Virus record (IMG/VR): IMGVR_UViG_3300040810_000470 | Span: 1-33,112 of that record | Strand: one strand, 5' to 3' | Length of the DNA: 33,112 bases | From: a virus | Shown: piece after piece, positions 2,497 to 30,079 of the stretch | How the letters are laid out: every line of letters begins with the position of its first letter | Position numbering within the stretch: the stretch's first letter is position 1 | Notes under the pieces: model-generated | The model's database searches: none | Seen by the model: the letters and a program-made list of their open reading frames with translations, nothing else | What the model was told of the DNA's origin: nothing | Program-made: the position numbers and the translations under genes

Positions 2497-2500
2497 AATA

Positions 2501-3355: not shown

Positions 3356-3378
3356 TTACACATTTCTCCTTATACTGA

Positions 3379-3386
3379 TATTTAGT
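3379..3386 (-). promoter_or_regulatory. Late promoter of gp13, overlapping the upstream stop codon
   Basis: Minus strand reads ACTAAATA, which matches the cyanophage late motif except for C at position 2. It is 24 bases before the gp13 start. The TAA stop codon of the 76-aa gene (3382-3384) is embedded in the box. Confidence 0.65.
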
Positions 3387-11117: not shown

Positions 11118-12674
11118 TTAGAATTGTAATATAACCTTGATGTCTTCTTTTTGATTGGTTGATCTTGTCACAGATGGTCTATTGTCAACATAAATTATGT
11201 TTCCAGAGTATTTTGCAACCTCAGGGTTTGCAATTCCATTAGTAAATGATTGACCAAGGTAGAATGTTCTATTATTTATTACGGTTGATACACCCGTAAA
11301 AGTGCTATCAATAGACAGACCTTCAGCAACAGAACCTCCAATAATTTTTAAAGAACCATCTCCAGTGGGGGATGAAGTAAAATCAACCTGGTCAAAACCA
11401 TATTGTGGATTTGTAATAGCGGCCCCAACAGTATTGAAACCTGATTGTGATCTATCTTGCCATACCTTCAAAACACCAGTAGATTGGTCATAACTAATAA
11501 CTCTAGCAACAGCCGTCGTTCCTGTTGAAACTGTTTGCGTAATAAAAGAGTCTGCAGCATAAGTAGCAGAACTATATCCAGTTCCAGTCAGTCTAAGTGC
11601 AATTGCTGCACTAGCTTTATCTGAGGTTAATGGGGTGTTTGATCCAAACGTACTTGGTTGCTCAACAATACCAATTCTTGCTATTTGATTTCCAGTAATA
11701 AAATCTGGGTTTTGAATATCATTTTCAAATCTAGAATAGAGAAGAACATTTTTTGTTCCGAGTTCTCTAAAAATATTTGCACCATGTCCACCTTTTGGTG
11801 GAATAATTACATCAAATGACGGTCTAGTAGAACCTGTTGGAACTCCTCCAGCAACTAGATCCACATTACCATAAGTATACCCAAATCCTTGATTCGATAT
11901 ATTGATAGATTCAACTTGAGAATCTGCATTCATTGTAATTGTACAAGTTGCACCTGTACCATTTCCTTTAATTGGAACGCCAGTATACACGGCATTTGCT
12001 GTTCCAAGCCCAACTCCCCTATTGGTAATGGTTGCAATTTTAATGGATCCATCTATTGCATTGTCTCTAACTGATGCATTTGTGTCTGAATCAATCCAGT
12101 CCGATGGTACTGGAATATAATTAGTAGAATCAAACTTAACTATATCCGATGGACTAATAGTATAGAGGTACTTCCAAACATATCCATCTCCACTTGAACC
12201 AGCAGATCTTGGTTCCAAATCAACAAAAGTTGGTTCATCTAGTGATGGTGCTCCATTTGGAGTTTCTGGTGTTGTTCCGTTCTGAAGACAAATATAGACC
12301 CTATAGTCACTATTCATCACAAAATAGAAAGCGTTATAGAGATTAGTTGCTCCAGAAACTTTTGCGGTATTGGATGTACTATAATCGTGGCGATACATAT
12401 CATACGTATTGCCAGACTTCCAATTAATTTTTGGAACAACTAATCTAACATCACTACCTGTGATTTTCTTCAGTCCGATGACTGTTTCCCAAATTTCATT
12501 TTCATTGTCAAAATTATCTACAGGTGCAGGAGGACTGTTATCCCAGTCTGACTGTAGATCGGTTGCATTTGGTAAACCAATGAAAGAATAATATGAACTA
12601 CCAGTAGTCGTCACGCCAGCAAGAAAATTTCTTGCATTCAATATTCTAATTTGATCAGTAATTATTGCAGCCAT
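11118..12674 (-). CDS. 8: Baseplate wedge protein gp8, enlarged
   Basis: Homologue of T4 gp8, a dimeric baseplate wedge component that contacts gp7 and gp10. The start (ITDQIRILNARNFL...YYSFIG) follows the T4 layout (VTSKFRTEKMLNFYNS...FITFGR). Near residues 165-180, GDGYVWKYLYTISPSDI matches T4 GDGYVWEYLFEIPPDVSI. The C-terminus SGNIIYVDNRPSVTR...QKEDIKVILQF matches T4 SGEMIYMENRPPIIM...TEEINILFTF. T4 gp8 is 334 aa and this one is 518 aa. The added length lies between these landmarks and contains GxGY repeats (NQGFGYTYGN, LTGTGYSSATY) and a TTAVARVISYDQSTGVLKV segment. A GATAAATA late box lies 22 bases before the start. Confidence 0.93.
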   Translation of the reverse strand: MAAIITDQIRILNARNFLAGVTTTGSSYYSFIGLPNATDLQSDWDNSPPAPVDNFDNENEIWETVIGLKKITGSDVRLVVPKINWKSGNTYDMYRHDYSTSNTAKVSGATNLYNAFYFVMNSDYRVYICLQNGTTPETPNGAPSLDEPTFVDLEPRSAGSSGDGYVWKYLYTISPSDIVKFDSTNYIPVPSDWIDSDTNASVRDNAIDGSIKIATITNRGVGLGTANAVYTGVPIKGNGTGATCTITMNADSQVESINISNQGFGYTYGNVDLVAGGVPTGSTRPSFDVIIPPKGGHGANIFRELGTKNVLLYSRFENDIQNPDFITGNQIARIGIVEQPSTFGSNTPLTSDKASAAIALRLTGTGYSSATYAADSFITQTVSTGTTAVARVISYDQSTGVLKVWQDRSQSGFNTVGAAITNPQYGFDQVDFTSSPTGDGSLKIIGGSVAEGLSIDSTFTGVSTVINNRTFYLGQSFTNGIANPEVAKYSGNIIYVDNRPSVTRSTNQKEDIKVILQF

Positions 12675-12695
12675 TGTTTATGGGACTTTTTTACT

Positions 12696-12703
12696 TATTT
12701 ATC
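12696..12703 (-). promoter_or_regulatory. Late promoter of gp8
   Basis: Minus strand reads GATAAATA, a full NATAAATA match, 22 bases before the gp8 start in the 34-base gap after the glycine-rich gene. It is followed by AGTAAAAAAGTC. The 18 bases 12684-12701 are identical to 26242-26259 at the promoter of the 3754-aa gene. Confidence 0.8.
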
Positions 12704-13773: not shown

Positions 13774-14153
13774 CAGTTAGTCTCCTCAATATCTCCAAGA
13801 ACCATAATGTTTGCAGTAGATGCAATTCCAACCGTTGCAGTCAAAGTATCATTGGTTGAAAATACCAATGGGTAATTCAGTTCAAACAACTGAGTTTCTT
13901 TAGCAGCAACTGTTTGCGAATAAAACTGCTTTGCTTCATCTGGAGAAGCAGATGCTGGAGTAGTGTTCTCTTCATAGTAAAGAGATACTGTAGAGGCAAA
14001 ACTTGTGGGGTTGTGAATCATAACACTCTTCACATAACAAGTTTTAGCTACACCAAGAGGAGTGCTGCTTACATTGCCAGTAATAATTCCAACGCCACTA
14101 CCCGCACCAGTAATTGAAATGATGCTATGTAATCTAGTCTTCTTGAGCGCCAT
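13773..14153 (-). CDS. Small virion structural protein (126 aa), unknown function
   Basis: A 126-residue beta-rich protein. The recognisable core is VKSVMIHNPTSFASTVSLYY, followed by KETQLFELNYPLVFSTNDTL. This pattern (a small beta-sandwich with an alternating hydrophobic rhythm) is common in small head, tail or fibre accessory proteins of marine phages; I cannot assign a T4 counterpart. AGGAAAT before the start gives a good ribosome binding site. A full-match late box lies 19 bases before the start, and the glycine-rich gene follows with a one-base stop/start overlap. The coupling suggests that this protein and the glycine-rich one are made in fixed proportion and may act together. Confidence 0.82.
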   Translation of the reverse strand: MALKKTRLHSIISITGAGSGVGIITGNVSSTPLGVAKTCYVKSVMIHNPTSFASTVSLYYEENTTPASASPDEAKQFYSQTVAAKETQLFELNYPLVFSTNDTLTATVGIASTANIMVLGDIEETN

Positions 14154-14171
14154 GATTTCCTAGTTTTTAGT

Positions 14172-14179
14172 TATTTATT
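14172..14179 (-). promoter_or_regulatory. Late promoter of the 126-aa and glycine-rich genes
   Basis: Minus strand reads AATAAATA (full NATAAATA match), 19 bases before the start at 14153. It overlaps the TAA stop codon of the upstream 251-aa gene. Confidence 0.75.
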
Positions 14180-14933
14180 ACATACCAAACATTCCTAAGT
14201 CAAACTCAGAAATGTTTAACCCGTAAATACCTGCACCATCTCCAACAAATGATGTTGCGGTGATAATTCCTGTGGTATTAACATTTTGACTGATTGCTGA
14301 ACCAGTGTCGCCAACAATGATGTCACCAGACTTTGTTGGTAGAATTGCCGTTGCATTTCCAGAATATTCTGCGTGTGCTGCAGCTTGAATTCTTGTATAG
14401 TGTGCGTTTGATACCTCGCAGTAGTAATCAATACGTCCTGGGGTTCCATCATCACTTCTAACTTCAACCAAGTTAGTTGTAGTGGTTACTCCACTAATTC
14501 TTGCAGCATTAATAGTCCCGACACCCGTCAAAGACATATTAGCAACTGTTGCCAGACCAGTTACATTGATGTAAGTGAAATCATTTGGTAAGTTTGCAAT
14601 AGCACTTTCAATGGTCGCTGTAGTTGTAGCATCAAGAGTTCCAACTCCATTCAGAGTTGCAATCGTAGCAATACCACTTACACTAACACCAGAAGCACCA
14701 ACGTTACCATTAACGTCTAATTTGTGTGCTGGAATTGTGCTACCAATACCAACATTTGGATATACTAAACTGATTGTGCTAGTAGATCCAGTACCAACGC
14801 TAAGATTGGTTCCATCTCCTATAGCAGCATATATTTCATCAAAATTAGAGTTTATCTTAGAACCACCCAGGCGAAGATTATCGCCTGTGCCGTCATTAGG
14901 ACCAGAACCTGTATTTATTCCTAATTTTGCCAT
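14178..14933 (-). CDS. Tail-fibre-like structural protein (251 aa)
   Basis: The N-terminus holds GINTGSGPNDGTGDNLRLGG followed by KINSNFDEIYAAIGDGTN. This motif opens many fibre and collar-associated proteins of T4-like marine phages. Next comes VGIGSTIPAHKLDVNGNVGA, a repeat seen in tail fibres and other elongated phage adhesins (sometimes ahead of an S74 chaperone domain, which is absent here). The rest is beta-rich with repeated TGIATVANMSLTGVG-type segments, and it ends with SEFDLGMFGM. A trimeric fibre is likely from the sequence style; the attachment point is unknown. A late box lies 23 bases before the start. No strong Shine-Dalgarno is visible (AGGTTTAACGTACC before ATG). Confidence 0.85.
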   Translation of the reverse strand: MAKLGINTGSGPNDGTGDNLRLGGSKINSNFDEIYAAIGDGTNLSVGTGSTSTISLVYPNVGIGSTIPAHKLDVNGNVGASGVSVSGIATIATLNGVGTLDATTTATIESAIANLPNDFTYINVTGLATVANMSLTGVGTINAARISGVTTTTNLVEVRSDDGTPGRIDYYCEVSNAHYTRIQAAAHAEYSGNATAILPTKSGDIIVGDTGSAISQNVNTTGIITATSFVGDGAGIYGLNISEFDLGMFGM

Positions 14934-14965: not shown

Positions 14966-17900
14966 TTAAACATTATAATCTTTGATCTTCAGAGGAACTT
15001 GCCTTCTAACATAAGCAGATGTTGAAATTCCTGTCACTCCATTTTGATTATAGAATGGGAATTCTGAAGTAGAAGTTCTTGCGGTGCAGTTAATCTTACC
15101 CCAAGTGAATAATCCATAATAATTTCTAAATATGAAATTATCAAATGTGGTGGTTGTAGAGTCAAATGTCAATATAGTATCATCGAATGTTTTGGTTACA
15201 AATTCATATCCTTCATAAGAAACAACACCAACCGTTACTTTTCTCAAGAATACATTTCCAACACCAGTGACCAATTCTTGAACTGTTTCAGCCTTGAGGA
15301 CCTTATAAACATTATCAAGAGCAGTAGTTCCTACACCAACTGTTGCTCCATTTTCATCAATTGAAGTTGAAGCAGATCCAACATTTGCGCTTCTAAGTAC
15401 GAAGTAATCATTAGTAGAAATTCCACTAATTGTAATTGCAGTTCCGACAAGTGTTGTATCTCTGAGAGCAGAATTTTCTGGAATATAGAATTCAAATTCC
15501 AATGCAGTTGTTGTTCCAACAATTGATGTTGTTCCAACGCCAACGATCAGTCCAAAATCACCAGAATAATTTACACCAGAATTAATTCTTTCAGAAAGAA
15601 CTGTGGGTGGTTCAATTAGAACAGCAGGTGGATTTGACTGAGAATAACCAGTCTTAGCAACACCAAGATTGACTGAAGTTACAATTCCAGAAGTAATTGA
15701 TGCAGTTGCAGATTGCCTTTGTGTAGTTCCAAGACCAACTGGATTACCAATCGTAACCACTGGAGCAGTCGTGTAACCAACACCGCCATCAGAGATTGCG
15801 ATTGATGTAATTGTTCCAGCAGCAGATACTACTGCTGTTGCTGCGGCTGCTACTCTTGTGTCCTGCGAAACAAGGAAGATATCTTCCTGGAATGCAAGAG
15901 AAATGCTATTCTCATTCTGTTGATTGAAGAGTGGAAGTACACTTTCAACATAAATTGTGGTTGATCCAACACCAACAGTTTGAATTACGTTTGTGACAGG
16001 ATAAACATTTGCTTTATATTGATCACGATCTTTAGCAACTCTTTCGCCATTGATTACAACGTCTTCAGTTTGCTTACACCAGATGACAGGTCTCTGAAGA
16101 TTAATATCATCAACATTTCCTGGGCCATAATATGCATTTGTAGAAACAACGTCAGTGGATTCAATAGCATAGACAAGTCTAGGATCTTCCTCAAGGAACT
16201 TACTTTGATTAAGTTTTGGATCATACGTAACTTTAAGAGTATCTCCTTTCTTAACTGTTTCTAGAACGTCAACCGACTCAACGTCAACAGAACCATTTCC
16301 CCTATAGAAGATAATATCAACCTTATCCCCAGACTTTGGAGCTTCTGGGAAGATGATTGTACTTCCTCCATTGAAGATATAACCTTCACCAGGAACTTGA
16401 AGAATGTTATTTACAAATACGATAAGAACATCTTGAATAACAATACTAGATCCTTTAGATGCAATAATAGAAGTGATTGTTCCTCCAATCTTGATTTGGA
16501 AGTCAGTCTTCTGACCATCAAACTCATTATCAAACTTGTCTATCGCTTGAAGTTGTCCAACTGACCATCCAGCAAACTTATCACTATATGTTTTTTCAAC
16601 CAGAATTGTAAATCTTTCAAAGTCCCCAAGAACAGTTGGATCTGTTGGGATTCCAGTTGCTCCACCAGTTGGAACAGTCAAGAATTGATTCTGCCCAAAC
16701 CCAAATCCAGTATTTGCAATTTCAAAGTCAATAACATCAGATCCAAATCCAACATTGAAGTTGATTTTAGCTTGAGTTCCAACACCAGTTGATGCTTCTG
16801 CCAAACCATCGGTTTGATAGATCAAAGGAATGTTGGTATAAGAAAGAGGATCTTCAATAATAACTTCTGGGAGATCAGATGTTGTATATCCACTACCAAC
16901 TGAAGTTATATGAACCGTTTCTAACAGATGTCCAGCACTAATCGTAGCAACACCAATATGAGTTACTGTATGAATGCCAACAGCACTGCTTGCAACACCA
17001 ACTCTAACGACACCAAGTGTTGGAGAAGGAATATTGATTGCAACTGATGTACCAGCAGCGATTTCAAATGGAGATGTGCTACCAATTCCGATATTGACTG
17101 AAGTTGTCCCTACAGAAATAATATTGGTTGGTTTGATATATGTTCCGACGCCAATTGTACAGGTGCTTCCTGCACTTAAGAAATCTAGATACTTGAATAC
17201 GCTGTTCTGATTGGCAAGGGTCATTATTGTAGAACCGATGCCAACAGTTGTAGCAATACTTGTGAGAACTTGATAGTTTTCAGCAGCTCTGTATCCAGAA
17301 CCTGTGCTTCCAATAGTTACTGCAGAAATAGTTCCAGCAGCGGAAACCGTTGCAGTACCACCCGCAGAAACCAGAGGTTGATATCCAAATCCAGCAGAAG
17401 AACCAACAGAAACGATGACACCACCGACAGGAAGATTTGAAGAATTTGCATCATATGTAATTACCTGACCATCATCGCCAAATACGGCAGATGTGATTCC
17501 AGAAGTTTCAGATAATGTATAATCTCTGGCAGTTCCTGGAATCTGGAAGATATCATTTATTAGGAGGATCGCATTATCATTTTCATATCCATCAGTGTCT
17601 GATCCATTTGATTTGAGTGCAAATGTGTTTTCAGTAGCATCGAATTGATCAGAAATATCATCAAAGATGTAGTTCTTAGCATAAGTTTCATTTGAAGATC
17701 CAGGAGTTCCAGATCTCAGGAATACTCTTGCTTGGAAAGTAGAACTTGTCGTAATTCCAGTATAATCCCTTTCATCAGGTGGGTTAGTTGTGGAAGAAAG
17801 AGGAATGTTTCCATAAGGCGCTTCTACAAAGTTCAGAGTGTTATTAGTGATATTATAATTACCTTGAACCTTAGTAATAAGTGCGCCAGTAGAATAACCC

Positions 17901-20900
17901 GATCTTCTTGTACCAAGCCATGCTCTAGTAACTCTAATAATATTTGTAGATCCAACTCCAACTGACTGGACTTTCATAATTTCATCATCAATCTGGAGAA
18001 GGTCTCCACCAAAGATAGAAGATATGCCAGTTGCATAGAGTGCGTCTTGACTTGCAAAAAGTTGGTCGTCAAGAGAAGTTGTCAGTGCAGTAGCAACAAC
18101 TGGAGATTGAATATAATTATCAATGGCAATCAAGCACTTAGCATTTTGATTATTTGCCGTAAATGTATGAGACGTTCCAATACCAACAGATGAGATTTCA
18201 AAGTACTCATTAGGAACAGCCTTGAGTGCTTTTTCTGGTGTGTCAGTAAGTCTAATTTTGTTAGAATCAACTTTAATCGCATAAACTGTGCTTGGCAGTT
18301 TATCCGTAACACCAACTCCAGAAACATTAGTAGATCCAATACTAATGCTTTGAGTTGTACCAGTTCCTGGATTTGAATACGTGAGTTTCTCACCACTCAC
18401 AAAGAAGTGATTTGGAATGGTAATTGCATTTGGCACCTCTAATCCAGCACCAGATCCAATTACATCTTCATCAGTAGAATCAATATATCTTTCAAAAATA
18501 TCATATCCACCATATTGAAGACGGAATGCTCTCTTAATATCAGAATCTGTTCCACTGTAATCACCATACTGAGTATCTAAGTATGCATTAGTGAAATCAA
18601 GTTCTATAGTAGCATCATCATTATCAACATACTTCATATAGTTGTAGAAGGTTCTTACTTCTGCATTAATTCCAGTATTTGGAGTGAATGTGAGTCTAAC
18701 AACATCTCCAGAAACAGTTGCTCCAAAGGTTCCAAGACCTGTCAATGGGGCTCCAGTACTTGTAAGATTACCAAACTCAGTAAGGAAAGTAGTCGTGAAA
18801 TCTGGACCCTGATCAATCAACATCAGTTCAGAAATCTGATGATGATTGTTATCTGGATCAGAAACCTGAACCACAAAATATCCACCATTATAGGTGCCAT
18901 TCGTATATTCAGCGATTGCATTTTCTGTTGGCGAACCACTAGCAGCAATGGAAGTTGGAAGAGCACCAATTTCTGCATGATTGAAACCGAAAGATCCAAC
19001 TCCTACACCTTCGCTAGAAATTGCAACAACTACAGTATTGACAGAAGATGCAACAGATACATTTGGAATAAAATCAACTTTAATATTCGATCCATCGATA
19101 TATGGATGATATGTACCAAATCCTGGTGTTGAGGCTCCAAATTCTCCAGCAGTTGTTAGTTGTCCATATTCAAGCAGATCTACATCAGTTCCATTGTGGA
19201 GAAGAGTGAGTTCGTCAAATTCATATTCACCATCAACAGTTTTGACTTCTACCAAAACTTTCGCTGATTCAAATGTGCTTGCAATACTAACAATATTTGT
19301 TGTTGTGCCAACAGCAACACTAGAACTTGTAGTTTCAACCTTAACTGCGCCACCAAAATAACTAGAACCAACACTGGTTACAGTATCACCAATATTATAC
19401 GAAAGAGTAAAGATATTATATGGATTTACTTGATACTTAGTTGGATAGAACTGTAAAGTGCCATCTGCCCCATCTTGAGCATAATCAAATGATCCTAAAT
19501 CAAGTTCAGTTTCTACTCTTGCGTATTGGTTCAGATATCCATTTCCAACAGCATCGTGCAGAACAGATACAAACATAACCTGAGCTTCACCAGTGTGATC
19601 AGGATCTTGAATGTATGTCAAGAACTTATGTGCCTTTGCATCTGCAAGTGGCCAACGAGCGATATTACTAAATCTAGTTGCTCTTGGTGAACTATTAAAT
19701 GTGTTGGCAACATTATCGGCGTTAAGAACTCTGTTTCCTACAGATTCTTCATAATCTGTCAGAATTCTATTTGTAAAGATGATATCATCAGAGAAACCTG
19801 ATTTGTAGTTTTCTTTTACCTTATCAAAGTTATAAACGCAATTTAAATCAACATGCTCGACAAATTCTATAATTTTGTCAAAATATGATTGCTCTGTACC
19901 TAATCCAACAGTTGGATTTTCATCTGGAGTATTTTCTATGATAAGATTAGAAAACTTTTTAAATCCAGAAGTGTGATTAATTGAACCAACCAAATCATCC
20001 CATTTTTCCAATTCAATCTTAGATTTAAGTGAATATGAGAACTTTTGATAGTAATCACTATCCTGAATAACCTGTCTGGTATCATTCAAGAATCCAGTTA
20101 TATCTTCCCATCCAGATTCAACTCTGGATGTGGAATCGATATCATAAGATGAGTCCGAAGAAAGAATGGATGCAATAGTTCCCCTAGTTTTGGATGACTG
20201 TCCTTCAACAATATGACCTTTAGTAAAGTCTCTATTAGACTTAACTTTAAGGTATCCATTTTGATTATCCCATCTTTCAACAACCCCCGTTGCCTTTGAA
20301 TCTTCTAAAGAAATAAGATTTTCTCCTTCAACAAAATTCGTTGTTGTTAATTTTACATCAAAAGTTGGAAAATGCTGCTTTGGAATAATTCTTCCAGCCG
20401 ATCTCGATGCACTAAATGTTCCTGGAGATTCTCCTGTGGATATATAACCATCGAGACTAAATGTCACAATACCAATTCCACCAATATTTTCATCAACTCC
20501 AGAAACAACAAATAATTTATAATCATAATTTTCAGTATTGTAACCTCTTCCACTGTTTACTACAACAACTTCTCCATTTGGATTTGTTGACGCGATACCA
20601 ACACTGGTATTTTCAATCATAATTTCATCGCCAACTGCAAATGGGAAAGATCCTGCAGTTGTAAAACCTGTAGCGAGAGTGACAGTAACATCTTTAGTCG
20701 ATAAATTATATGCTAAAGATGAAATTCCAACGCCATTAGAATTTTTTGTTGGTAGTAGTATTGGTGCAACACTATTCATTCCAAAAGTATTGTTAATAAT
20801 TTGAAGTTGATTTATTCCAAATTCAAATCTCAAATCTACTTCTTTCAATTCTTTTCTAGTTTCACCATCAAATACAAGAATTTTTGGTGGAATAGATCCA

Positions 20901-23900
20901 TATCCAAATCCATATGATGTAATCCCAACAGATTCAAGAATTGAAAGATTATTAATTTTTAAAATTTCTGGAAGTTTGGCAGTAGGTCTTAAAGTTCTAT
21001 CATATGGATAATCAAAACCAATGTCTCTAAGTTTTGTTCTTTTAATATTGCCAATAGTATTGCTCTGAAGTTCAAATACTGCATTTGAACCAATGCCACT
21101 AATAACTCCATCAATAGATGGAAGTTTATAATAATTTGTTCCAGAATTGAAAATTTTAAGTTCTGCGATAGAACCAATCCCAGTTGCAGAATCTGTTGTA
21201 TATGTAACTACTGCATTACTATCTGTATAAGATGATTGTTCTGGTGTTTCTTCAGTGAAATATCTAAAAGAGGTAGAAGAAGCTATTGAAACGGATTGTT
21301 TTCCAGAATATACACTATCCAGTATTTGAAGTTGATTATAACCAACAACATCATAATCACAAATAACTGCAAGTTTTGATGTTGGGAGAACATCATTCTG
21401 TACTGGAATCAGTTTATAGTAAAGTGTTTTTGGTAATTTTTCATTAAATGTTATGATGAGTTTGCCGTCAACTCCAACTGTTCCTGTAGTTGCAACTTCA
21501 AAATCCTCATTATCCAGTGTCTTGTTGAACTCTGTGTCAAAATTACTATCAGTAAACAGAGCAAATTTAAATGCGGGATATGAAATAGAATTTCTAACGT
21601 ATGTCAGAGAAGAATCTGACAAATCAAACTCAACTCCAGTTCCCTTACGAACCTTGATTGGGGGATTAATTGGAGAGAACGATGAGTCAGTTGCACTAGT
21701 GATATTAACAATATTAGGAACAGAGCTTATCGAATTGTGATAAGTCTCAGATAATTTAATTGTATCTTCATCAACAATTACAGCGTAGTAAATCTTTTCA
21801 TCAACCAATCCACCAGCTGCGCTAGATGCAGTGTAAATTAAAGACTGTCCAAGAGTATATCCATGCTTTTCGATTGTGATTTCATTGGTGGTTGTATTAA
21901 TGCCACTTGCACTTACGTCCTTTTTATCAATTACAATTCTATGATTGTAATCGTTGTAGGAAACAGTAAATGATGTTGTGATAGATGGTCTTACATCAAC
22001 GTAGACATTATCAGTGACTTGAAGACCATGTGTTTGTGCAGTAGATACGGTAACCGTATTCTTAGAAGAAGCAACAGTGACTACGTTAGTATAATTTGTT
22101 TTGAAACTATGATTGTCACCAGAACCATATCCAGTGAAGAACAACAATCCTTCATTGGAAGTTGAAGATGCAGCTCCTGCAAACGATCCCGTGGAATTGA
22201 TACCGATTCTTACAGTTGATAATCCGATTTGATCTTTTGTAATTCTAGCAACATATACTCTTGATTGATCTGCTAAAGTTACTGAAGTAGAGATACCATT
22301 GGTAGATACTCCAAGAGCAGAACCACCATTCAAGTTATAAATCAGTTCATCACCAGTTTGGAGATCATGTGATGGGAAGTATAATGTTTGAGTTGGGAGG
22401 AATATATTAGTAACTCCAGATCCAGGATTCGAGAATACAATAGTTGTGCCAATGCCAACTCCAGATTGAGTTCCGATAGCTACAGTATCTACTGGATTGA
22501 AATATAACTCTCTATTGAGTCTGAAATTAAAAGTCGTATTAAAACCAATGTTTGCTGAGAATCTTCTAGAATCTTCTCTAAGAATTGTTGATGCGGTATA
22601 TGCAGCACCAGTTGTTCCAGATACTTCTCTCTGTACTCTAACTCTTGAAGATACTCTATCAATGTTTAATATTTTTACTTTCTCACTTCCAATATCAAAG
22701 ACATCATTTTCCGTAATCGCATCTAATCCGACTCCATAAACAGAGAAATATGTTACAATACCAGTAGCACCAGTTGTGCCAACTCCTGCTCTAAGAACTA
22801 AGTTGGCAGTGGAGAGGCCAACACTATATTGGCCAGTTAACTTGACAGCGGTTGTGCTGAGTCCACTAATAGAAACAATTTCTTTGTTTAAAAGATTGTG
22901 AGGAGAACTTGCAGTGAAAGAATAGTTTCCTGATTTTCCTACTGGTAAAACTTCAAGACCATTGATGGTACTAGTTACACAACTAATGGATGAAACTTTT
23001 TTTCCACCAACCTTTCTTACTCTGATATCTGCATTATATCCACCAGTCTCTTCATTATTAATAATTAAAGCGTCACCAACTTTATAGTTAGTTCCACCAG
23101 TCAAAATACCAATCTTATCCAGTTTTCCTGGTGCAGCAAAAGTTACCTTCGATATTTGATTATTTTTTAATTTGAATGGTCTTTCAACATATTGATATGA
23201 CGAATCATCTTCCTCTAAATTGTAGAAACGTGTATTTCTTACCCATCCATTTTTCTGAAGATCATATTGATCTTGGTTTGATGATTTTAGATAATTGAAA
23301 TTAGATGCTTTGGCATATAGAGAATCTCCAATCAAATAAGGAAATACTGGAGATTTGTAATTTTTAAATATACCTTGAGAATCGGGACTTTCTGATATTG
23401 TCGCAAAATATGCATAAGTTCCTTTTGGAAACTCTGGCGTTATACAAAATCTTCCATTGTTTTGATCTAGAATGTCATCACTTGAGTTTTCTACAAATTT
23501 GTAGTCTTCTACAAAAAATCCTTCTTCAAATTGTGTAGTTGGTGGTCTATTGTTCTGCAAACTTAGTATATACCCAGATTTCATCTGGGTAACAACTCCA
23601 CCATCCTTATTCAAATAACCAAATGGTCCATAGATTGGATTGCCATCATATGCCCATCCAATAATTGGTGAGTGATTTTTTGAAGTTACTTTTTCTGCAC
23701 CATTATCAAGAACTAGATCTGGAGAATTGTATAATTTAGTGCCATTTTGATTGGTTTGATATATTTTTTTTCTTAACAACCTTGGGGCATATAAATGAAC
23801 ACACTGGAGGCCGTATAATTCATTTAATCCATTAGTTACGAAAACATCATCGGAGAAAATATTTTTGACATTTTTTTGATACTCATTTACAGTCCATCTT

Positions 23901-26230
23901 TGTATGTGTGCTCTAAATACCGCATAATTTCCTGGATATTCTACCTCTATTGAAGTCTGTCCCGCAATATAACCAAAACCTTGTCCAATAATATTTACTG
24001 AAACTATTTTGCCTCCAGAAACAACTGGAGTAAGAGTGCATCCCTGACCAGAATCAGAAACTACATTTAGAGTTGGAATTGCATTAATGTTTTTGCCACC
24101 ATTATTTACAATTACTTCTATAACTTTTCCGTTTGAAATAATAGGAGTTAATTGTGCATCAGAACCAACTTGAAGTGATATCTGGGGTTCTCTAACATAG
24201 TTGAGTATCTCTGAAGAACCATAACCAACACCACCATTTGAGATATTTACTCCAGTAATACTTCCCCTTACTATTGGAGAAACTTTAGCCTGAAAAGTTT
24301 CTGATCCAACAGAAGAAATTCCAATCTCTCCTAAAACAGATACTACAATTTCTGGATAATTAAAATAGTGACTACCTAGATCTTCCGGAAGAAAACCATT
24401 AATTTGTGTTTTGGGCGAAGTTATATTTACATATTGCTTAGTTCTATAATACAATTCTATGTCAGAAGATGGTCCAATAGGTGACAATCTAATCTTATCA
24501 TTATCAACCACAGTAACATAATATTCTGTGTTGGCAGATAATCCACCTATAGATGTCGATGATGGATTGTATTTAATTTTCTCACCAGAAGAGTATCCAT
24601 GAGACTTGATTATGATCTCATTCAGAGAAGTTGATACTCCTACTGCCGTTGTTTTTCTATTTTGATATCCCGAACCTAAGGAAGATAATTCAATAGACGA
24701 AACAACTTTCTTTGGAGTTGTTGATCTAATTGTGTGGCGACCAGAACCATATCCTGAGAAAAGTACAGTATTGATACCTGAAATAGCATCATCCTTAGTA
24801 TTATGGAGTTTTATTTGTGTTGGATTTTGAATAGAAAGATAATAAAATGCATCTGTCGTTAATCCAACAATTCCACCTCCCCCATTTGTTTTATAGATAA
24901 CTTTTTCATAATCTCTAAATTTATGATAAGTAGAAAACCCAATAGCAGATGAAGACCCAATAGTTACCAATCCATAAATCTCTTCAGAATTAAAATTTAT
25001 ATTATGCTCAACTAAAGAAGTATTAGCTTTTGCTCTAGCTCCTTTTCCATTTCCACCAGAAATTTCTACTACTGGATCTGTTATATAATCAAATCCACCT
25101 TCTATCAAGTTGATTTTATTAAAAGATCCATTTACAATTACATTTCCAGTTGCTCCGCTACCAACATTATCAGTAATTACTAAATTTGGAGGATTAATGA
25201 CATCATATCCACTACCTGAATTGTCTACAATTATATTTTCAATTCTTCCATAGTTTAAACCATTTAATGACTTATAATTTAAAACTTCTACTCCATCAAG
25301 GAGAATACCATTTCTAGTTCCAGGTTCGGTTTTTGTTGAATTTAAAGTATTGTTTTGTGGTGGTATTTCCCTGAAAAGTTTTTGATTCTCAAGATTTTTT
25401 TCATTAAATGTATATAATTCAATAGTATTACTAGAAACAGAAATTGGTTCTGTTGTAATATAATCTTCGTCAAAAAGTTGTGATTTGCTCTTGGCTAATT
25501 TTATAGAAGTTGGATCACTAAGTCTCTTAACAAAATAAATTCCCTCATCGGCAATACCCTTTTGAGTCTCCGTAAAAGTAACAGTATTACCATCAATATC
25601 AGAGGAAGTGGTAATTATTTTTTGAGGAGTGTAATAGATAGTATCTCCAGTGTAGAAACCATGGTCTCCACTGGATATAATTTTAAATGTATCTGTATTG
25701 TCTGAACCTGTTGGTGGAAATGTTCCACTGAAAGTTATTTTAGAATCTTTAACTTCTAAATCAATATCTCCATAATATGGAATTGATGAAGAAGCAACTA
25801 ATGTGCTATTTTCTTTTTTATAAACATTAAGAACATCTGTTGAACTTTGAGAGAGATCATAATTGATTGCTCTTCCTTTTGAAATATTTCGTCTAACTAC
25901 AATACTATCTAAAGAAACATTATCAAGATTTCCTTGATCTCCAATTGTAATTTGATCAGACCCGTTTACAGAATATACCTTAGATGTTGATTTGAAATTA
26001 TTTCCTGTTATCTGAAGAGTATCACCTATTCTAAAAATATGTTCGTTATCAAGTAGTAGTTTATATCTAAAATTTTGCAGATTAATCTTTTCGAGCGACT
26101 TTACTTTATAAGTAGTCGCAGAATTTAAAATCCAAGTATTGGAGGCAGCATCATTTGCTGCTATCCCAAGAGTTTTTACTCGGATGGTATCGCCTTTCTC
26201 GTAATACCTATTATTCAACTGCTGCGACAT
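14966..26230 (-). CDS. Giant modular virion protein with YHYH-type motif (3754 aa)
   Basis: One uninterrupted frame of 11.3 kb, about three times as long as the largest T4 protein (gp34, 1289 aa). The N-terminus (NNRYYEKGDTIRVKTLGIA) starts a beta-rich chain. About six copies of a GD-I-Y...YYV...IKLS repeat occur near residues 190-240, 440-480, 545-585, 1290-1340, 1455-1495 and 2610-2665. GxGY repeats occur near 340, 525, 660, 750, 2980, 3110 and 3490. Near residue 860, PIIGWAYDGNPIYGPFGY followed by YAYFATISES and FPYLIGD is a YHYH-type domain. A DDEIMKV...VTRAWLGT module lies near 2750. VGVGSTT/VGIGST turns are frequent. It follows the gp7-like gene and precedes fibre genes, so I infer a peripheral baseplate or fibre-like structure. 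No enzymatic site is evident. Confidence 0.88.
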   Translation of the reverse strand: MSQQLNNRYYEKGDTIRVKTLGIAANDAASNTWILNSATTYKVKSLEKINLQNFRYKLLLDNEHIFRIGDTLQITGNNFKSTSKVYSVNGSDQITIGDQGNLDNVSLDSIVVRRNISKGRAINYDLSQSSTDVLNVYKKENSTLVASSSIPYYGDIDLEVKDSKITFSGTFPPTGSDNTDTFKIISSGDHGFYTGDTIYYTPQKIITTSSDIDGNTVTFTETQKGIADEGIYFVKRLSDPTSIKLAKSKSQLFDEDYITTEPISVSSNTIELYTFNEKNLENQKLFREIPPQNNTLNSTKTEPGTRNGILLDGVEVLNYKSLNGLNYGRIENIIVDNSGSGYDVINPPNLVITDNVGSGATGNVIVNGSFNKINLIEGGFDYITDPVVEISGGNGKGARAKANTSLVEHNINFNSEEIYGLVTIGSSSAIGFSTYHKFRDYEKVIYKTNGGGGIVGLTTDAFYYLSIQNPTQIKLHNTKDDAISGINTVLFSGYGSGRHTIRSTTPKKVVSSIELSSLGSGYQNRKTTAVGVSTSLNEIIIKSHGYSSGEKIKYNPSSTSIGGLSANTEYYVTVVDNDKIRLSPIGPSSDIELYYRTKQYVNITSPKTQINGFLPEDLGSHYFNYPEIVVSVLGEIGISSVGSETFQAKVSPIVRGSITGVNISNGGVGYGSSEILNYVREPQISLQVGSDAQLTPIISNGKVIEVIVNNGGKNINAIPTLNVVSDSGQGCTLTPVVSGGKIVSVNIIGQGFGYIAGQTSIEVEYPGNYAVFRAHIQRWTVNEYQKNVKNIFSDDVFVTNGLNELYGLQCVHLYAPRLLRKKIYQTNQNGTKLYNSPDLVLDNGAEKVTSKNHSPIIGWAYDGNPIYGPFGYLNKDGGVVTQMKSGYILSLQNNRPPTTQFEEGFFVEDYKFVENSSDDILDQNNGRFCITPEFPKGTYAYFATISESPDSQGIFKNYKSPVFPYLIGDSLYAKASNFNYLKSSNQDQYDLQKNGWVRNTRFYNLEEDDSSYQYVERPFKLKNNQISKVTFAAPGKLDKIGILTGGTNYKVGDALIINNEETGGYNADIRVRKVGGKKVSSISCVTSTINGLEVLPVGKSGNYSFTASSPHNLLNKEIVSISGLSTTAVKLTGQYSVGLSTANLVLRAGVGTTGATGIVTYFSVYGVGLDAITENDVFDIGSEKVKILNIDRVSSRVRVQREVSGTTGAAYTASTILREDSRRFSANIGFNTTFNFRLNRELYFNPVDTVAIGTQSGVGIGTTIVFSNPGSGVTNIFLPTQTLYFPSHDLQTGDELIYNLNGGSALGVSTNGISTSVTLADQSRVYVARITKDQIGLSTVRIGINSTGSFAGAASSTSNEGLLFFTGYGSGDNHSFKTNYTNVVTVASSKNTVTVSTAQTHGLQVTDNVYVDVRPSITTSFTVSYNDYNHRIVIDKKDVSASGINTTTNEITIEKHGYTLGQSLIYTASSAAGGLVDEKIYYAVIVDEDTIKLSETYHNSISSVPNIVNITSATDSSFSPINPPIKVRKGTGVEFDLSDSSLTYVRNSISYPAFKFALFTDSNFDTEFNKTLDNEDFEVATTGTVGVDGKLIITFNEKLPKTLYYKLIPVQNDVLPTSKLAVICDYDVVGYNQLQILDSVYSGKQSVSIASSTSFRYFTEETPEQSSYTDSNAVVTYTTDSATGIGSIAELKIFNSGTNYYKLPSIDGVISGIGSNAVFELQSNTIGNIKRTKLRDIGFDYPYDRTLRPTAKLPEILKINNLSILESVGITSYGFGYGSIPPKILVFDGETRKELKEVDLRFEFGINQLQIINNTFGMNSVAPILLPTKNSNGVGISSLAYNLSTKDVTVTLATGFTTAGSFPFAVGDEIMIENTSVGIASTNPNGEVVVVNSGRGYNTENYDYKLFVVSGVDENIGGIGIVTFSLDGYISTGESPGTFSASRSAGRIIPKQHFPTFDVKLTTTNFVEGENLISLEDSKATGVVERWDNQNGYLKVKSNRDFTKGHIVEGQSSKTRGTIASILSSDSSYDIDSTSRVESGWEDITGFLNDTRQVIQDSDYYQKFSYSLKSKIELEKWDDLVGSINHTSGFKKFSNLIIENTPDENPTVGLGTEQSYFDKIIEFVEHVDLNCVYNFDKVKENYKSGFSDDIIFTNRILTDYEESVGNRVLNADNVANTFNSSPRATRFSNIARWPLADAKAHKFLTYIQDPDHTGEAQVMFVSVLHDAVGNGYLNQYARVETELDLGSFDYAQDGADGTLQFYPTKYQVNPYNIFTLSYNIGDTVTSVGSSYFGGAVKVETTSSSVAVGTTTNIVSIASTFESAKVLVEVKTVDGEYEFDELTLLHNGTDVDLLEYGQLTTAGEFGASTPGFGTYHPYIDGSNIKVDFIPNVSVASSVNTVVVAISSEGVGVGSFGFNHAEIGALPTSIAASGSPTENAIAEYTNGTYNGGYFVVQVSDPDNNHHQISELMLIDQGPDFTTTFLTEFGNLTSTGAPLTGLGTFGATVSGDVVRLTFTPNTGINAEVRTFYNYMKYVDNDDATIELDFTNAYLDTQYGDYSGTDSDIKRAFRLQYGGYDIFERYIDSTDEDVIGSGAGLEVPNAITIPNHFFVSGEKLTYSNPGTGTTQSISIGSTNVSGVGVTDKLPSTVYAIKVDSNKIRLTDTPEKALKAVPNEYFEISSVGIGTSHTFTANNQNAKCLIAIDNYIQSPVVATALTTSLDDQLFASQDALYATGISSIFGGDLLQIDDEIMKVQSVGVGSTNIIRVTRAWLGTRRSGYSTGALITKVQGNYNITNNTLNFVEAPYGNIPLSSTTNPPDERDYTGITTSSTFQARVFLRSGTPGSSNETYAKNYIFDDISDQFDATENTFALKSNGSDTDGYENDNAILLINDIFQIPGTARDYTLSETSGITSAVFGDDGQVITYDANSSNLPVGGVIVSVGSSAGFGYQPLVSAGGTATVSAAGTISAVTIGSTGSGYRAAENYQVLTSIATTVGIGSTIMTLANQNSVFKYLDFLSAGSTCTIGVGTYIKPTNIISVGTTSVNIGIGSTSPFEIAAGTSVAINIPSPTLGVVRVGVASSAVGIHTVTHIGVATISAGHLLETVHITSVGSGYTTSDLPEVIIEDPLSYTNIPLIYQTDGLAEASTGVGTQAKINFNVGFGSDVIDFEIANTGFGFGQNQFLTVPTGGATGIPTDPTVLGDFERFTILVEKTYSDKFAGWSVGQLQAIDKFDNEFDGQKTDFQIKIGGTITSIIASKGSSIVIQDVLIVFVNNILQVPGEGYIFNGGSTIIFPEAPKSGDKVDIIFYRGNGSVDVESVDVLETVKKGDTLKVTYDPKLNQSKFLEEDPRLVYAIESTDVVSTNAYYGPGNVDDINLQRPVIWCKQTEDVVINGERVAKDRDQYKANVYPVTNVIQTVGVGSTTIYVESVLPLFNQQNENSISLAFQEDIFLVSQDTRVAAAATAVVSAAGTITSIAISDGGVGYTTAPVVTIGNPVGLGTTQRQSATASITSGIVTSVNLGVAKTGYSQSNPPAVLIEPPTVLSERINSGVNYSGDFGLIVGVGTTSIVGTTTALEFEFYIPENSALRDTTLVGTAITISGISTNDYFVLRSANVGSASTSIDENGATVGVGTTALDNVYKVLKAETVQELVTGVGNVFLRKVTVGVVSYEGYEFVTKTFDDTILTFDSTTTTFDNFIFRNYYGLFTWGKINCTARTSTSEFPFYNQNGVTGISTSAYVRRQVPLKIKDYNV

Positions 26231-26253
26231 ATCTGCCTTGAGACTTTTTTACT

Positions 26254-26261
26254 TATTTAGT
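26254..26261 (-). promoter_or_regulatory. Late promoter of the 3754-aa gene, overlapping the upstream stop codon
   Basis: Minus strand reads ACTAAATA, 24 bases before the start at 26230. The TAA stop of the gp7-like gene (26257-26259) lies inside the box. It is followed by AGTAAAAAAGTC, as in the gp8 promoter. Confidence 0.65.
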
Positions 26262-27744
26262 AACCGTAACCACCGCTTCCATTTCCAGAAGAACTGGCGG
26301 ATGTCGTATTTGTAATGCTGGAAACTGAGTTTGTATATGATGAAGAACTATTAGTTGCGACTACCGCACTGTATTCTCCTTGATTTAGTAAACTCAATTC
26401 TTTAGTGTCGTAAATATACTCATGTTCTTTCTGTACATGAGTTGGTCCAACCATTTTTCTGCCTCTATGAATGTGATATGGCCCATAGTATGGATTGCCT
26501 TTTACCCACCCAATAAGTTCTCCAATATGATAATTTGATAACACATTTACAATTCTCATAGAAACTACACTATTATCACTTAAAGTGACCGTAGCATAAG
26601 TATTAATGCCAACAATAGTATTATCGGAAATAGTATTGGTAATATTTGTGATGTTGTAAAATTGGGTTAAAGATTTTGATGTGTATGAAACTATACCGAC
26701 ACTGAGATCATCATATGTTACTGTCAGTTCTCCAGACACTGGAAATCCTACAGTAGAATCAACATCAAAAGTTTTAGAAGAAGTAGTGTAATCGCCAATT
26801 AACTTTGTTTTTGCTTGAGCAACAAAAGTTCCATACACAGATCCCTCAAATTTAAGATCTCTTGAATAATTCGCATCAAAACTTACTCTGTAATAATCAG
26901 TTGATGCTCCACTAACAATGACTCTTTCAACATCAGTAATTGGTGCATATGCTTTGTTAATTGAATTACTAAAAGTATTTTGATATAAAGTATATCCTTT
27001 AGTATCCATAACATTGCCAGATATTGGCTCAACGATCATATCTTTTGTTATTTTATATAAAGATTGAGACGGTGTTAAAAGATTGTCTGAGGGTTTTATA
27101 ACTTCAACATCTTCACCGTAGAGTGCCTTAAATAAAATCTTAAATGATTGATCAGTTCCCTTTGAGGTATAAAAATCTCTTGATTGCTTTATAAAAAGAT
27201 TTTTATCAACTTGATCTAAAAGAGTTCTATCTTCAAGTCCAGGTAAAAATTGATGTTTTACTTTCTTAAAAAATCTTGATAAGAAATCAACACTTAAATT
27301 TTCTACAGTTGCTTCTGCATCATGGCTGCTAGAAATAGTATTTGAGAAAGTAAAAGATTCATCTACATCATTTTGAGAATAACCCTGAAATCCACGAATA
27401 CAACCAGTAAAACTAAAACTATTTTTTCCAGTATAAGTTATAATTTCATCATCAATTTTAAGTAATCCATATTCATCAGGAAAACCATTTGTGTTTGACA
27501 CATATATGATATCATCATAGTATGTAATGTCACTTCTCAGAGAAACTGACTTAGTAACATTTGCATTATTGTTTAACTTAATATATCGATCAATATTTTG
27601 CAGTAAATCAAGAGGAGCACCTTGAAATTCTTGGGAAAGATAATATTGAGATAAAAATTCCCCCAAAAGAGGAAACTCGTCCCGAACATAATCGGGAAGT
27701 TGATTCTTTACAATAGTCTTGAAAGGAACTCTAGTCTGTGTCAT
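26257..27744 (-). CDS. 7: Baseplate wedge protein, gp7-like (C-terminal part of T4 gp7)
   Basis: Residues 190-208 read FYTSKGTDQSFKILFKALY. As I recall T4 gp7, its C-terminal third contains FYSTKGIEASYKFLFKVLY followed by NEEVEIE, and here GEDVEV follows. Upstream, LLGEFLSQYYLSQEFQG (from residue 26) has the place and style of the T4 segment that precedes this motif. The protein thus corresponds to the C-terminal region of T4 gp7 (1032 aa) without its long N-terminal part, and its place after gp6 is the T4 place of gene 7. A DDEIITYTG...IRGFQG module sits near residues 95-125. Near residue 420 is IGWVKGNPYYGPYHIHRGRK, similar to the YHYH motif of the next gene. The C-terminus is a Ser/Gly-rich tail. 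The ATG lies 1 base after the gp6 stop. Confidence 0.8.
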   Translation of the reverse strand: MTQTRVPFKTIVKNQLPDYVRDEFPLLGEFLSQYYLSQEFQGAPLDLLQNIDRYIKLNNNANVTKSVSLRSDITYYDDIIYVSNTNGFPDEYGLLKIDDEIITYTGKNSFSFTGCIRGFQGYSQNDVDESFTFSNTISSSHDAEATVENLSVDFLSRFFKKVKHQFLPGLEDRTLLDQVDKNLFIKQSRDFYTSKGTDQSFKILFKALYGEDVEVIKPSDNLLTPSQSLYKITKDMIVEPISGNVMDTKGYTLYQNTFSNSINKAYAPITDVERVIVSGASTDYYRVSFDANYSRDLKFEGSVYGTFVAQAKTKLIGDYTTSSKTFDVDSTVGFPVSGELTVTYDDLSVGIVSYTSKSLTQFYNITNITNTISDNTIVGINTYATVTLSDNSVVSMRIVNVLSNYHIGELIGWVKGNPYYGPYHIHRGRKMVGPTHVQKEHEYIYDTKELSLLNQGEYSAVVATNSSSSYTNSVSSITNTTSASSSGNGSGGYGY

Positions 27745-27745: not shown

Positions 27746-29677
27746 TTATGGCCTTACCAACAAACCTCTGTTATAGTCGTAACTTGAAGAAACGACATAT
27801 GATGATGCGGATGGGTCTAACCCAGAAGCAATAGAATCATTTACCATCTCAAAAACACTATTGTTAACATCTAATTGTAAGTACAAATCTTGCAATCCAA
27901 TCACATCATTTGATTGTGGTGTCACTACAATTTGAATTGTTGATTGTCCATCAATAACTTTCTGAGTTGATTGAATGTTAATTGGATTTAGGGTAACAAC
28001 TCCTTTCACATAATCAATTCTTCCAACATTTCTCCTAACAATCGTTGGATCAGTTGCGTTTGGATTTTGGAGTGTAAACAAGAACAAAGAACCATTCGTT
28101 CTGTTAGTATTTGGAATATCACCTATGTAAACATCTTGGGTAATGCCAGCAACCTTGAATGCACTAGAGCGAATATTATATCCACTCATCCTTGAAATGT
28201 GGAATTGATTGCCGAACCCTATAGAGTACTCTGCAAGGGTGTTGAGGGCAGCCCTGACATCTCTACGCATCGATACAGCGGTGATATTTGAAGTGATTGA
28301 TTCATGACTATCATCAATAATTTTTAAGAATTTACTATACTTAAATCTTGCACCATACTTATTGAGTTCACTTGAGTCTGCATATGACTCAATATTATTT
28401 TGTATTATGGAAGAAACTTCAGATGCAGATGATGCTTGATTGGTGTTATAATAAATCTTGGAAGATACCTCAAGGTAAAGATACTTGAGGTCTAAAATTT
28501 CTGGAACGATTCCTGCAACTGCATATTTTTTCAAATCTCTCTTAATATTCTCTTTGATGAGATTTGGAAGAAATTCGCCTGTTCTTGGTTTAATACTAAT
28601 AAAAACTTTTCCGTATTGGGGAGGAACTAACTCTTCACCACCAAATACAGAAATAGATTCTGTTTCTGGATAGATTTTCGCAGGTATTAGAGTTTCATAA
28701 TCGTTTGCAGTTAAGGCTCTATTTTGAGAAGCATAGATTCTAGGAGCAAACTTTTTAATCGAATCTACTTTTTCAATAGCATCTCCACCAGTAGCAGAGA
28801 TATCAGTTGTGATAATTGAAATTCCTTGAGAAATAGTATATGTAACACCATTTCTTACATAAGTCATTCGACCATTGAAGGCAAAACTACTTAATCCATT
28901 AGAACCACCACCAGAAGTGGTCAAATAAGTGATTTCAATTTCATTACCTTCACTTAATTCCTTACCAAAAATACCATCACCAAAAAGTATTTCATATCTT
29001 TCGTCTTCTACCTCTTGTAAGAAGAAAACTCTTGAATCTCCATCAATATCAAATAAACTATCTTGTTTTGTGTAGGTTCTTTTTGCAGTAGAACTATTTG
29101 TTCCTACTCTAACACGGATTAAATCAGTATCTGCCCCAGGATTGTTGATTAAAAATCTCTGATTTGGGTTTCTTGAACTATAAGTATATGATTCGGTAAT
29201 ATATGTTCCTTCATAAATCGGTAGTGTATCAAATGATGCTTCTCCATTCACTACAGGAACTGTTATATCATCCATAATGGAGAATATATAAGAATTTCCA
29301 GCAAAAGTACCGCCCGATGTTGCGATTGGGCCCTTATTCAAGGTAATTGATGTTGGTGCTGGGGTAATTCCAGTAGTATCAACGAAAAAACTAATAGTTG
29401 CTCTTGAAGCTTTTCTTGATCTTGGGGTATATCCAATATTTCTTGCAAGCGAAACAACATTTTCTCTTAATGTTGCGCTATCAATGAAACACTCATTTGA
29501 TACCATATTGGCATTGTATGATGCCAAGTAAGTATTGTATGCTAAAACATCTAAAATTGTGGACAGGTTAGACCCTTCAAAGTCATAGTCCGTAAAATTA
29601 GAATTGTTTCTTAGATATTCTCTAAGTGTAGATTTAATCTGGGCGAAATCCAGATTTGCGTAGTTTACTAGTGCCAT
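27746..29677 (-). CDS. 6: Baseplate wedge protein gp6
   Basis: Homologue of T4 gp6, whose dimers form the continuous inner ring of the baseplate. At 643 aa it is close to T4 gp6 (660 aa). The N-terminus (VNYANLDFAQIKSTLREYLR, then DFEGSNLSTILDVLAYNTYL) and the following SATLRENVVSLARNIGYTPR are the typical opening of gp6 in T4-like cyanophages and of related baseplate J-type proteins. The C-terminal half contains VFGGEELVPPQYGKVFISIK and VSMRRDVRAALNTLAEYSIG. The ATG directly follows the TAA stop of gp25 (TAAATG), so it should be translated from the gp25 transcript. Confidence 0.95.
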   Translation of the reverse strand: MALVNYANLDFAQIKSTLREYLRNNSNFTDYDFEGSNLSTILDVLAYNTYLASYNANMVSNECFIDSATLRENVVSLARNIGYTPRSRKASRATISFFVDTTGITPAPTSITLNKGPIATSGGTFAGNSYIFSIMDDITVPVVNGEASFDTLPIYEGTYITESYTYSSRNPNQRFLINNPGADTDLIRVRVGTNSSTAKRTYTKQDSLFDIDGDSRVFFLQEVEDERYEILFGDGIFGKELSEGNEIEITYLTTSGGGSNGLSSFAFNGRMTYVRNGVTYTISQGISIITTDISATGGDAIEKVDSIKKFAPRIYASQNRALTANDYETLIPAKIYPETESISVFGGEELVPPQYGKVFISIKPRTGEFLPNLIKENIKRDLKKYAVAGIVPEILDLKYLYLEVSSKIYYNTNQASSASEVSSIIQNNIESYADSSELNKYGARFKYSKFLKIIDDSHESITSNITAVSMRRDVRAALNTLAEYSIGFGNQFHISRMSGYNIRSSAFKVAGITQDVYIGDIPNTNRTNGSLFLFTLQNPNATDPTIVRRNVGRIDYVKGVVTLNPINIQSTQKVIDGQSTIQIVVTPQSNDVIGLQDLYLQLDVNNSVFEMVNDSIASGLDPSASSYVVSSSYDYNRGLLVRP

Positions 29678-30079
29678 TTATCGAGTTGATTCTAATACAA
29701 ACTCTAACTGTTGAGGTGGTATATCAACTCCAATAATTCTGTAGATAATAGTTACATTAAAACCGTTGTTATCGAAATCAGGATCGACTACAACGGAAGA
29801 TAATGAAACTCTTGGTTCATAGTTAATGATGGAGTTTTCTATTTCATCTCTAATCGTCACTGCAGTAATGTTATCAATGTTTTCAAACAGTGATTGACTA
29901 ATGTTTGATCCAAAATCTGGATCAAAAAACTTTTCACCAGGAGCAGTAAAGACAATGTTTCTAACAGATCTTGCGATTGCAGAAGCATTATTCAAAGCAA
30001 TGACATCATATGTAAGGGGATTAGCCTTAAATGATGCACTAATATCTTTGAAACCTTGACTTACCCTTTCTAAAGGCAT
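29678..30079 (-). CDS. 25: Baseplate wedge protein gp25
   Basis: Member of the gp25/GpW family, a small wedge component that contacts the tube and helps start sheath assembly. At 133 aa it equals T4 gp25 (132 aa). The family core is visible as ALNNASAIARSVRNIVFTAP, then GEKFFDPDFGSNISQSLFEN around residues 47-66, and a C-terminal strand (GFNVTIIYRIIG). It is the first gene of the late wedge operon 25-6-7, with a perfect TATAAATA promoter 30 bases upstream. In T4, gene 25 is in a different cluster from gene 6; the 25-6 pairing is the usual cyanophage arrangement. Confidence 0.95.
   Translation of the reverse strand: MPLERVSQGFKDISASFKANPLTYDVIALNNASAIARSVRNIVFTAPGEKFFDPDFGSNISQSLFENIDNITAVTIRDEIENSIINYEPRVSLSSVVVDPDFDNNGFNVTIIYRIIGVDIPPQQLEFVLESTR

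Follow-up and report, generated by a model that had tools for sequence, protein, structure and literature searches.

A giant open reading frame in an uncultured T4-like cyanophage lineage probably encodes the larger piece of a naturally split gp7, the baseplate wedge protein

The baseplate of T4-type phages contains six wedges, each built from a gp6 dimer and one gp7. In T4, gp7 (1032 aa; PDB 5IV5, 5HX2) is a monomer with six copies per baseplate, and its binding partners are gp6 and gp8 (PMC3004832). The core domain of the solved minimal homologue, gp17 of XM1, is discontinuous (residues 1-79 and 107-133), and the tail spike attaches to its unresolved insert (PMC10457771). In T4-like cyanophages gp7 is normally a single chain of approximately 3,000-6,600 residues, with lengths of 4156 aa in S-SM2, 4067 aa in Bellamy, 4120 aa in S-SCSM1 and 5195 aa in P-SSM2, and a giant size is ordinary in the Kyanoviridae. 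Compact gp7s are found in Ochrobactrum phage OC (631 aa) and Sinorhizobium phage phiM19 (1007 aa). It has also been stated that cyano- and pelagimyophages have no gp7, with VrlC in its place (PMC7029224).

We analyzed a giant open reading frame, here called gp7C, in a window of 33,112 nucleotides (IMG/VR virus record IMGVR_UViG_3300040810_000470, positions 1 to 33,112). An earlier note on this DNA, made from the sequence alone, had described an unbroken frame of 3754 residues and interpreted it as a modular virion protein of a size not found in T4, possibly a long fibre, a baseplate skirt or a replacement for several T4 proteins. The ORF check reproduced the frame exactly, with an ATG start, a single terminal stop and 3754 codons free of internal stops, on the minus strand, which had not been given. 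Relatives from cultured phages, including gp7 of S-SM2 and Bellamy, align along the full length at 27-45% protein identity (tblastn), and complete relatives in other metagenomes measure 3740-3749 aa. The dN/dS ratio was approximately 0.13-0.18 between the window and three relatives and approximately 0.11 among close contigs, and purifying selection was seen on both gp7C and the upstream frame gp7N. Based on the full-length relatives, the selection and the near-identical lengths, we conclude that gp7C is a real gene and neither a chance frame nor an artefact. A sequencing error that fuses separate genes is excluded; the reverse was found, a gene that is split. A nucleotide search for close named relatives of the window returned 55-base patches only.

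The PHROG profile phrog_2885 ("baseplate wedge subunit", 4179 positions) covers the two frames end to end, with positions 6-406 in gp7N and 407-3360 in gp7C. In all named relatives examined, both parts are fused; in S-SM2, Bellamy, S-SCSM1 and P-SSM2 they form one gene, gp7, located directly after gp25 and gp6. The "gp7-like gene" of the earlier note and the giant thus derive from a single ancestral gp7. The neighbourhood had been read correctly in that the giant lies between a gp7-like gene and small fibre-like genes, but this gp7-like gene encodes the N-terminal part of what was once one protein with the giant. Since the core segments lie on two frames in the split clade, we assign the pair of gp7N and gp7C, rather than the giant alone, to phrog_2885. 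By its homology, the giant is the C-terminal nine tenths of gp7 of T4-like cyanophages and no new kind of virion protein. A modular virion baseplate protein far larger than its T4 counterpart is supported, whereas a protein lacking a T4 counterpart is not, and neither is a fibre. The coordinates of all features are given in Table 1.

Table 1. Features of the split gp7 locus and its surroundings, in window coordinates
Feature	Position	Strand	Basis or comment
DUF4815 / "VrlC" protein, second giant, 2498 aa	3615-11111	-	phrog_358
gp8, baseplate wedge	11118..12674	-	phrog_438
Second copy of 18-base element TAAATAAGTAAAAAAGTC, exact, upstream of gp8	12684..12701	-	
gp7C, giant ORF, 3754 aa	14966..26230	-	C-terminal nine tenths of cyanophage gp7; phrog_2885 E 0, tblastn
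GxGY-type repeat, gp7C 3416-3531	15638..15985	-	iterated profile
GxGY-type repeat, gp7C 3106-3214	16589..16915	-	iterated profile
GxGY-type repeat, gp7C 2937-3014	17189..17422	-	iterated profile
GD..Y..IKLS repeat 6, gp7C 2603-2664	18239..18424	-	iterated profile
Core segment 2, gp7C 1961-2200	19631..20350	-	present in all cyanophage-type gp7s examined
GxGY-type repeat, gp7C 1639-1743	21002..21316	-	iterated profile
GD..Y..IKLS repeat 5, gp7C 1451-1496	21743..21880	-	iterated profile
GD..Y..IKLS repeat 4, gp7C 1283-1340	22211..22384	-	iterated profile
YHYH-family domain, gp7C 846-946	23393..23695	-	PF14240 E 3.7e-25, 89.5 bits vs curated cut-off 25
GxGY-type repeats, gp7C 616-756	23963..24385	-	iterated profile
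GD..Y..IKLS repeat 3, gp7C 539-585	24476..24616	-	iterated profile
GD..Y..IKLS repeat 2, gp7C 432-478	24797..24937	-	iterated profile
GxGY-type repeats, gp7C 292-415	24986..25357	-	iterated profile
GD..Y..IKLS repeat 1, gp7C 185-248	25487..25678	-	iterated profile
Spacer gp7N/gp7C, 26 bases, AAGG ribosome-site-like sequence before ATG	26231..26256	-	
18-base late-promoter-like CTAAATA element TAAATAAGTAAAAAAGTC at gp7N/gp7C junction	26242..26259	-	
gp7N, 495 aa, N-terminal part of ancestral gp7 and new C-terminal tail	26257..27744	-	phrog_2885 positions 6-406
gp7N C-terminal tail, 405-495, gp5-like	26260..26532	-	absent in fused gp7s; gp5 similarity
gp7N beta-barrel, 225-404, RG module inserted	26533..27072	-	predicted model vs T4 gp7 758-844
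RG module copy 2, gp7N 317-369	26638..26796	-	iterated profile; hhalign to copy 1 2.6e-10
Core segment 1, gp7N 179-216, FIKQSRDFYTSKGTDQSFKILFKALYGE	27097..27210	-	T4 gp7 725-758
RG (DDE...RG) module copy 1, gp7N 71-121	27382..27534	-	iterated profile
gp6, baseplate wedge	27746..29677	-	phrog_219; order as in relatives
gp25, baseplate wedge / sheath initiator	29678..30079	-	phrog_261
ATAAATA/CTAAATA sites, examples	26254-26260, 12696-12702, 14172-14178, 3379-3385	-	

The window keeps the gene order gp25-gp6-gp7-gp8 of S-SM2, Bellamy and P-SSM2. In S-SM2 and Bellamy gp8 follows directly after gp7, whereas in the window three small genes intervene (12709-14933, minus strand), encoding a protein of 251 aa with a fibre- or connector-like N-terminus, a protein of 126 aa of unknown type and a very glycine-rich protein of 354 aa. 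The gp7 proteins of S-SM2, Bellamy and S-SCSM1 resemble the window pair in end-to-end homology (approximately 35-51% identity), in their location between gp25-gp6 and gp8, in the repeats and in the YHYH domain. They differ in being encoded by one gene, whereas the window has two, cut near residue 410, and its N-terminal product carries a new tail.

The relationship to T4 gp7 is clearest for core segment 1. This segment of gp7N matched T4 gp7 with an E-value of 8.9e-8 (200 shuffles of T4 gp7 and unrelated T4 sequences as background) and in hhalign with 97.3% probability and 1.7e-11, as compared to 0.84 for the reversed control. In an hmmsearch of PDB sequences (E 8.4e-6), the only significant matches were two T4-type gp7 sequences. 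For gp7N, AlphaFold2 gave a model of only intermediate confidence (mean pLDDT 66), and a Foldseek search of this model against the PDB gave no match with E below 0.001. In a second look with VIA-align, residues 225-404 of the model superposed on T4 gp7 758-844 in all three T4-type gp7 structures listed (5iv5, 9f4a, 5hx2) with Z 8.5-8.8 and 2.1-3.1 A over 82-83 residues, a score tied with other phage beta-domains but supported by its collinearity with the sequence match of core segment 1. Thus, the counterpart of T4 gp7 725-844, core segment 1 plus barrel, sits on gp7N and not on the giant.

Core segment 2 is located in the giant and contains a conserved helix motif, YYQ..SY..S...W...V...H..G...F (gp7C 2060-2093). 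It was detected in every cyanophage-type gp7 examined, including the compact ones of OC and phiM19 (1e-15 to 1e-31), and also clearly in S-PM2 and Syn9. The match to T4 gp7 at approximately 781-924 is weak: T4 gp7 ranked first with an E-value of 0.035, and hhalign gave 3e-4 to 5e-3 at low probability. A profile search of PDB sequences with this segment returned chance hits only. A T4 counterpart at gp7 residues ~855-920 is therefore only suggestive. The model of the segment is of poor confidence (pLDDT 58), which may be expected if it needs a partner. We also considered whether the insert is flanked on both sides by copies of the same barrel, since the first part of this model resembles the T4 gp7 barrel (Z 5.3), but the profile comparison was unsupportive and the idea was rejected.

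The two core segments occur in the same order in the compact gp7s of OC and phiM19 as in the window. They are separated by ~110 residues in OC, ~800 in phiM19 and roughly 1,600-3,000 in cyanophages. The cyanophage insert, about 1,950 residues or more, consists mostly of beta-modules, and further residues come after core segment 2. Thus, the size of cyanophage gp7 largely reflects an expansion between two core parts together with a long C-terminal extension. A second expansion site lies before core segment 1 in Syn9 (L049 12165-28738) and S-SZBM1 (L131 24249-44108), with ~500 further residues between the N-terminal helices and this segment. T4 gp7 shares core segment 1 and the barrel, and may share core segment 2. 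For most of its N-terminal ~660 residues no counterpart was found in cyanophage gp7, and it lacks the beta-modules that separate the core segments and that follow them. By analogy with the spike-binding insert of XM1 gp17, a peripheral, receptor-side placement of the cyanophage insert is plausible.

The virion homologue S-SZBM1_208 (6619 aa) has both core segments and the same location after gp6 as the window genes, but is unsplit and nearly twice as long. It was identified by LC-MS in purified virions with 71 peptides and 13.5% coverage (PMC9146016), which, by analogy from this unsplit homologue, is the best available evidence that giant gp7 chains are virion proteins. According to a review, g10, g11 and g12 are among the T4 genes missing from cyanomyoviruses (PMC2984593). 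A wider role of the giant, such as the replacement of several T4 proteins, is thus possible.

The repeats reported for the giant were confirmed. Iterated profiles identified exactly six copies of the GD..Y..IKLS repeat, where about six had been claimed, and eight GxGY-type stretches. The claimed DDE...RG module is present as one stretch at gp7C residue 2748, and two clear RG modules sit in gp7N. The claimed YHYH-type domain stands as a significant PF14240 match, but its naming Y-H-Y-H motif reads YAYF in the window and in the four relatives inspected; the histidines of the motif are lost in all of these. The GxGY module was also identified in gp14 and gp8 of the window; it is therefore a module that several proteins of this virion have in common and no hallmark of gp7C. 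In gp14 (head closure, 1081-2496, minus strand) it forms a C-terminal GxGY-repeat extension, common to gp7 and gp8.

The split is shared by a set of related contigs. Among loci with both core segments, from GenBank phages and IMG/VR contigs, the segments are in one frame in 70 and in two frames, cut at the junction of the window, in 12; the latter represent 11 distinct IMG/VR contigs (L016 and L052 are the same contig), and the window is one more. The junction itself was seen in ~20 distinct contigs from many metagenomes at 67-83% protein identity, with the layout of a TAA stop, a short spacer with AAGG, and ATG. In a tree of core segment 2 (IQ-TREE), the split rows group in a single clade (support 100/100) that lies within the fused sequences and also includes one contig too short to judge. 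Since the split loci are cut at the same place and form one clade, we conclude that the fission happened once and has been kept since. No named phage was found in the clade among the loci surveyed. In contig L030, a piece of gp7C lies on the opposite strand at the contig start (1-201, minus strand) and the gp7C frame stops at approximately residue 3166 (16484), as would result from an assembly inversion or a further break.

The gp7s of Synechococcus phage B23 and DSL-LC02 are likewise annotated as two genes, but the cut falls after core segment 2 in B23 and inside it in DSL-LC02, each seen once here, whereas in the window clade it falls between the core segments. The split in L099 (1160-13109) gives 1572 and 2412 aa; this and the splits of DSL-LC02 (L008 5499-17345) and B23 (L004 5909-17688) are single cases and perhaps errors. 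A literature search found no account of a gp7 fission between the core parts with a gp5-like tail and a promoter-like element. To judge from that search, the conserved fission is new, whereas giant gp7 itself is already known from T4-like cyanophages.

The tail of gp7N comprises ~90 residues with a YHIH...GRKMVGxxH...YIYDTKE motif, a Ser/Gly-rich linker and a terminal GGYGY. Its similarity is to gp5, the baseplate hub and tail lysozyme (hub/spike). The motif matched the C-terminal part of S-SCSM1 gp5 with 55% identity (E 2e-12), and also gp5 of S-SSM7 and P-TIM68. In gp5 of S-SCSM1 and S-SSM7, as in the gp7N tail, a low-complexity region and then a Gly-Tyr terminus come after the motif. The gp5 gene of the split lineage itself was not found on the contigs searched. 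L030 is split yet its gp7N has no gp5-like tail; either the tail was acquired once the split had occurred, or L030 has lost it.

An 18-base element with the CTAAATA sequence lies at the gp7N/gp7C junction and, as an exact copy, before gp8 (Table 1). A near-identical element precedes gp8 in the fused relatives L087, L088, L099 and L120, and a third similar site, TAAATAACTAAAAAC, precedes the 126-aa gene. The idea that the junction element was copied specifically from upstream of gp8 is weakened by this third site, and the element may be an extended late-promoter sequence of the lineage. ATAAATA or CTAAATA occurs 11 times on the coding strand, with 9 of the 11 at gene boundaries, which make up ~6% of the window (binomial p 5e-10); the two occurrences on the other strand are both inside genes. 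The late promoter of cyanophages has been reported as NATAAATA (PMC2984593), and CTAAATA is the late promoter of the T4-like phage Aeh1 (PMC1524935). The two forms are probably used together as one late-promoter set. Based on the CTAAATA at the junction, the enrichment at boundaries and the reported promoters, gp7C probably has its own late promoter.

We consider it likely that the gp7 wedge protein of this uncultured T4-like cyanophage lineage is split in nature and that the giant, gp7C, is the larger of the two products. A single ancestral fission placed core part 1 in gp7N (495 aa) and core part 2 in gp7C (3754 aa). In our model, both would be translated late, from the same operon, and the wedge core would consist of a gp6 dimer, gp7N and gp7C, rejoined non-covalently with core segments 1 and 2 in contact across two chains. 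The repeats and beta-modules of gp7C would spread to make up the periphery of the baseplate and offer attachment sites for fibres or receptor-binding parts. For gp7C, we infer the complex formation, the copy number, the peripheral position and the receptor-side role.

An assembly or sequencing error, which would make the break at 26231-26259 spurious and gp7 a single gene, has a negligible probability. The named relatives are fused, and the odd splits of L099 and DSL-LC02 could be errors, but stop, spacer, ribosome site and start recur at the same break in the ~20 contigs of different metagenomes and 67-83% identity. The ~90 extra tail residues are present in nearly all split contigs, and independent contigs already refute an error. 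That a programmed frameshift or stop readthrough joins the two frames, so that some full-length gp7 is made, is suggested by the mere 26 bases that separate them in the window, yet we regard it as very improbable. The spacers are 23, 25, 26 and 30 bases long in relatives and the frame of gp7C relative to gp7N differs, which argues against a conserved frameshift or readthrough signal; moreover, gp7C has its own AAGG...ATG, and the gp7N tail is absent from fused gp7s.

Less easily dismissed, although still improbable, is the interpretation that the giant acts chiefly as a long tail fibre or adhesin and does not contribute to the wedge core. Repeats, YHYH domain and size would suit a host-facing surface protein, and the Syn9 homologue was deposited as "putative fiber". 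However, the giant contains a conserved non-repeat core segment that is also present in the compact gp7s of 631 and 1007 aa, gp7C is continuous with gp7N in fused relatives, and the gp7C matches in PHROG (E-values up to 0.001) and Pfam (up to 0.1) included no fibre family. Somewhat more weight, while still unlikely, is given to gp7N alone being a reduced gp7 and gp7C a separate peripheral protein, the two no longer forming one unit. This would agree with the core part 1, barrel and gained gp5-like tail of gp7N and with the promoter-like element of gp7C, but core segment 2 is well conserved in gp7C of the split clade (69-86% in close relatives, motif retained), as expected if it still completes the core. 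Returning to the split wedge protein, we tentatively suggest as a more speculative extension that the core is completed in trans, with gp7N as a small assembly nucleus carrying a tail shared with gp5 and gp7C as a giant periphery expressed on its own; the outer baseplate could then be dosed or swapped independently of the core.

These results correct the published view that VrlC replaces gp7 (PMC7029224), as VrlC/DUF4815 and gp7 are separate genes in the window. The giant gp7 of cyanophages is the wedge protein of T4, very much enlarged by sequence that separates two conserved parts of the core. Within this insert evolution has cut the chain, and both halves have been kept under selection. A natural split of gp7 would allow a core component of contractile tails to be tested in the form of two separable pieces.
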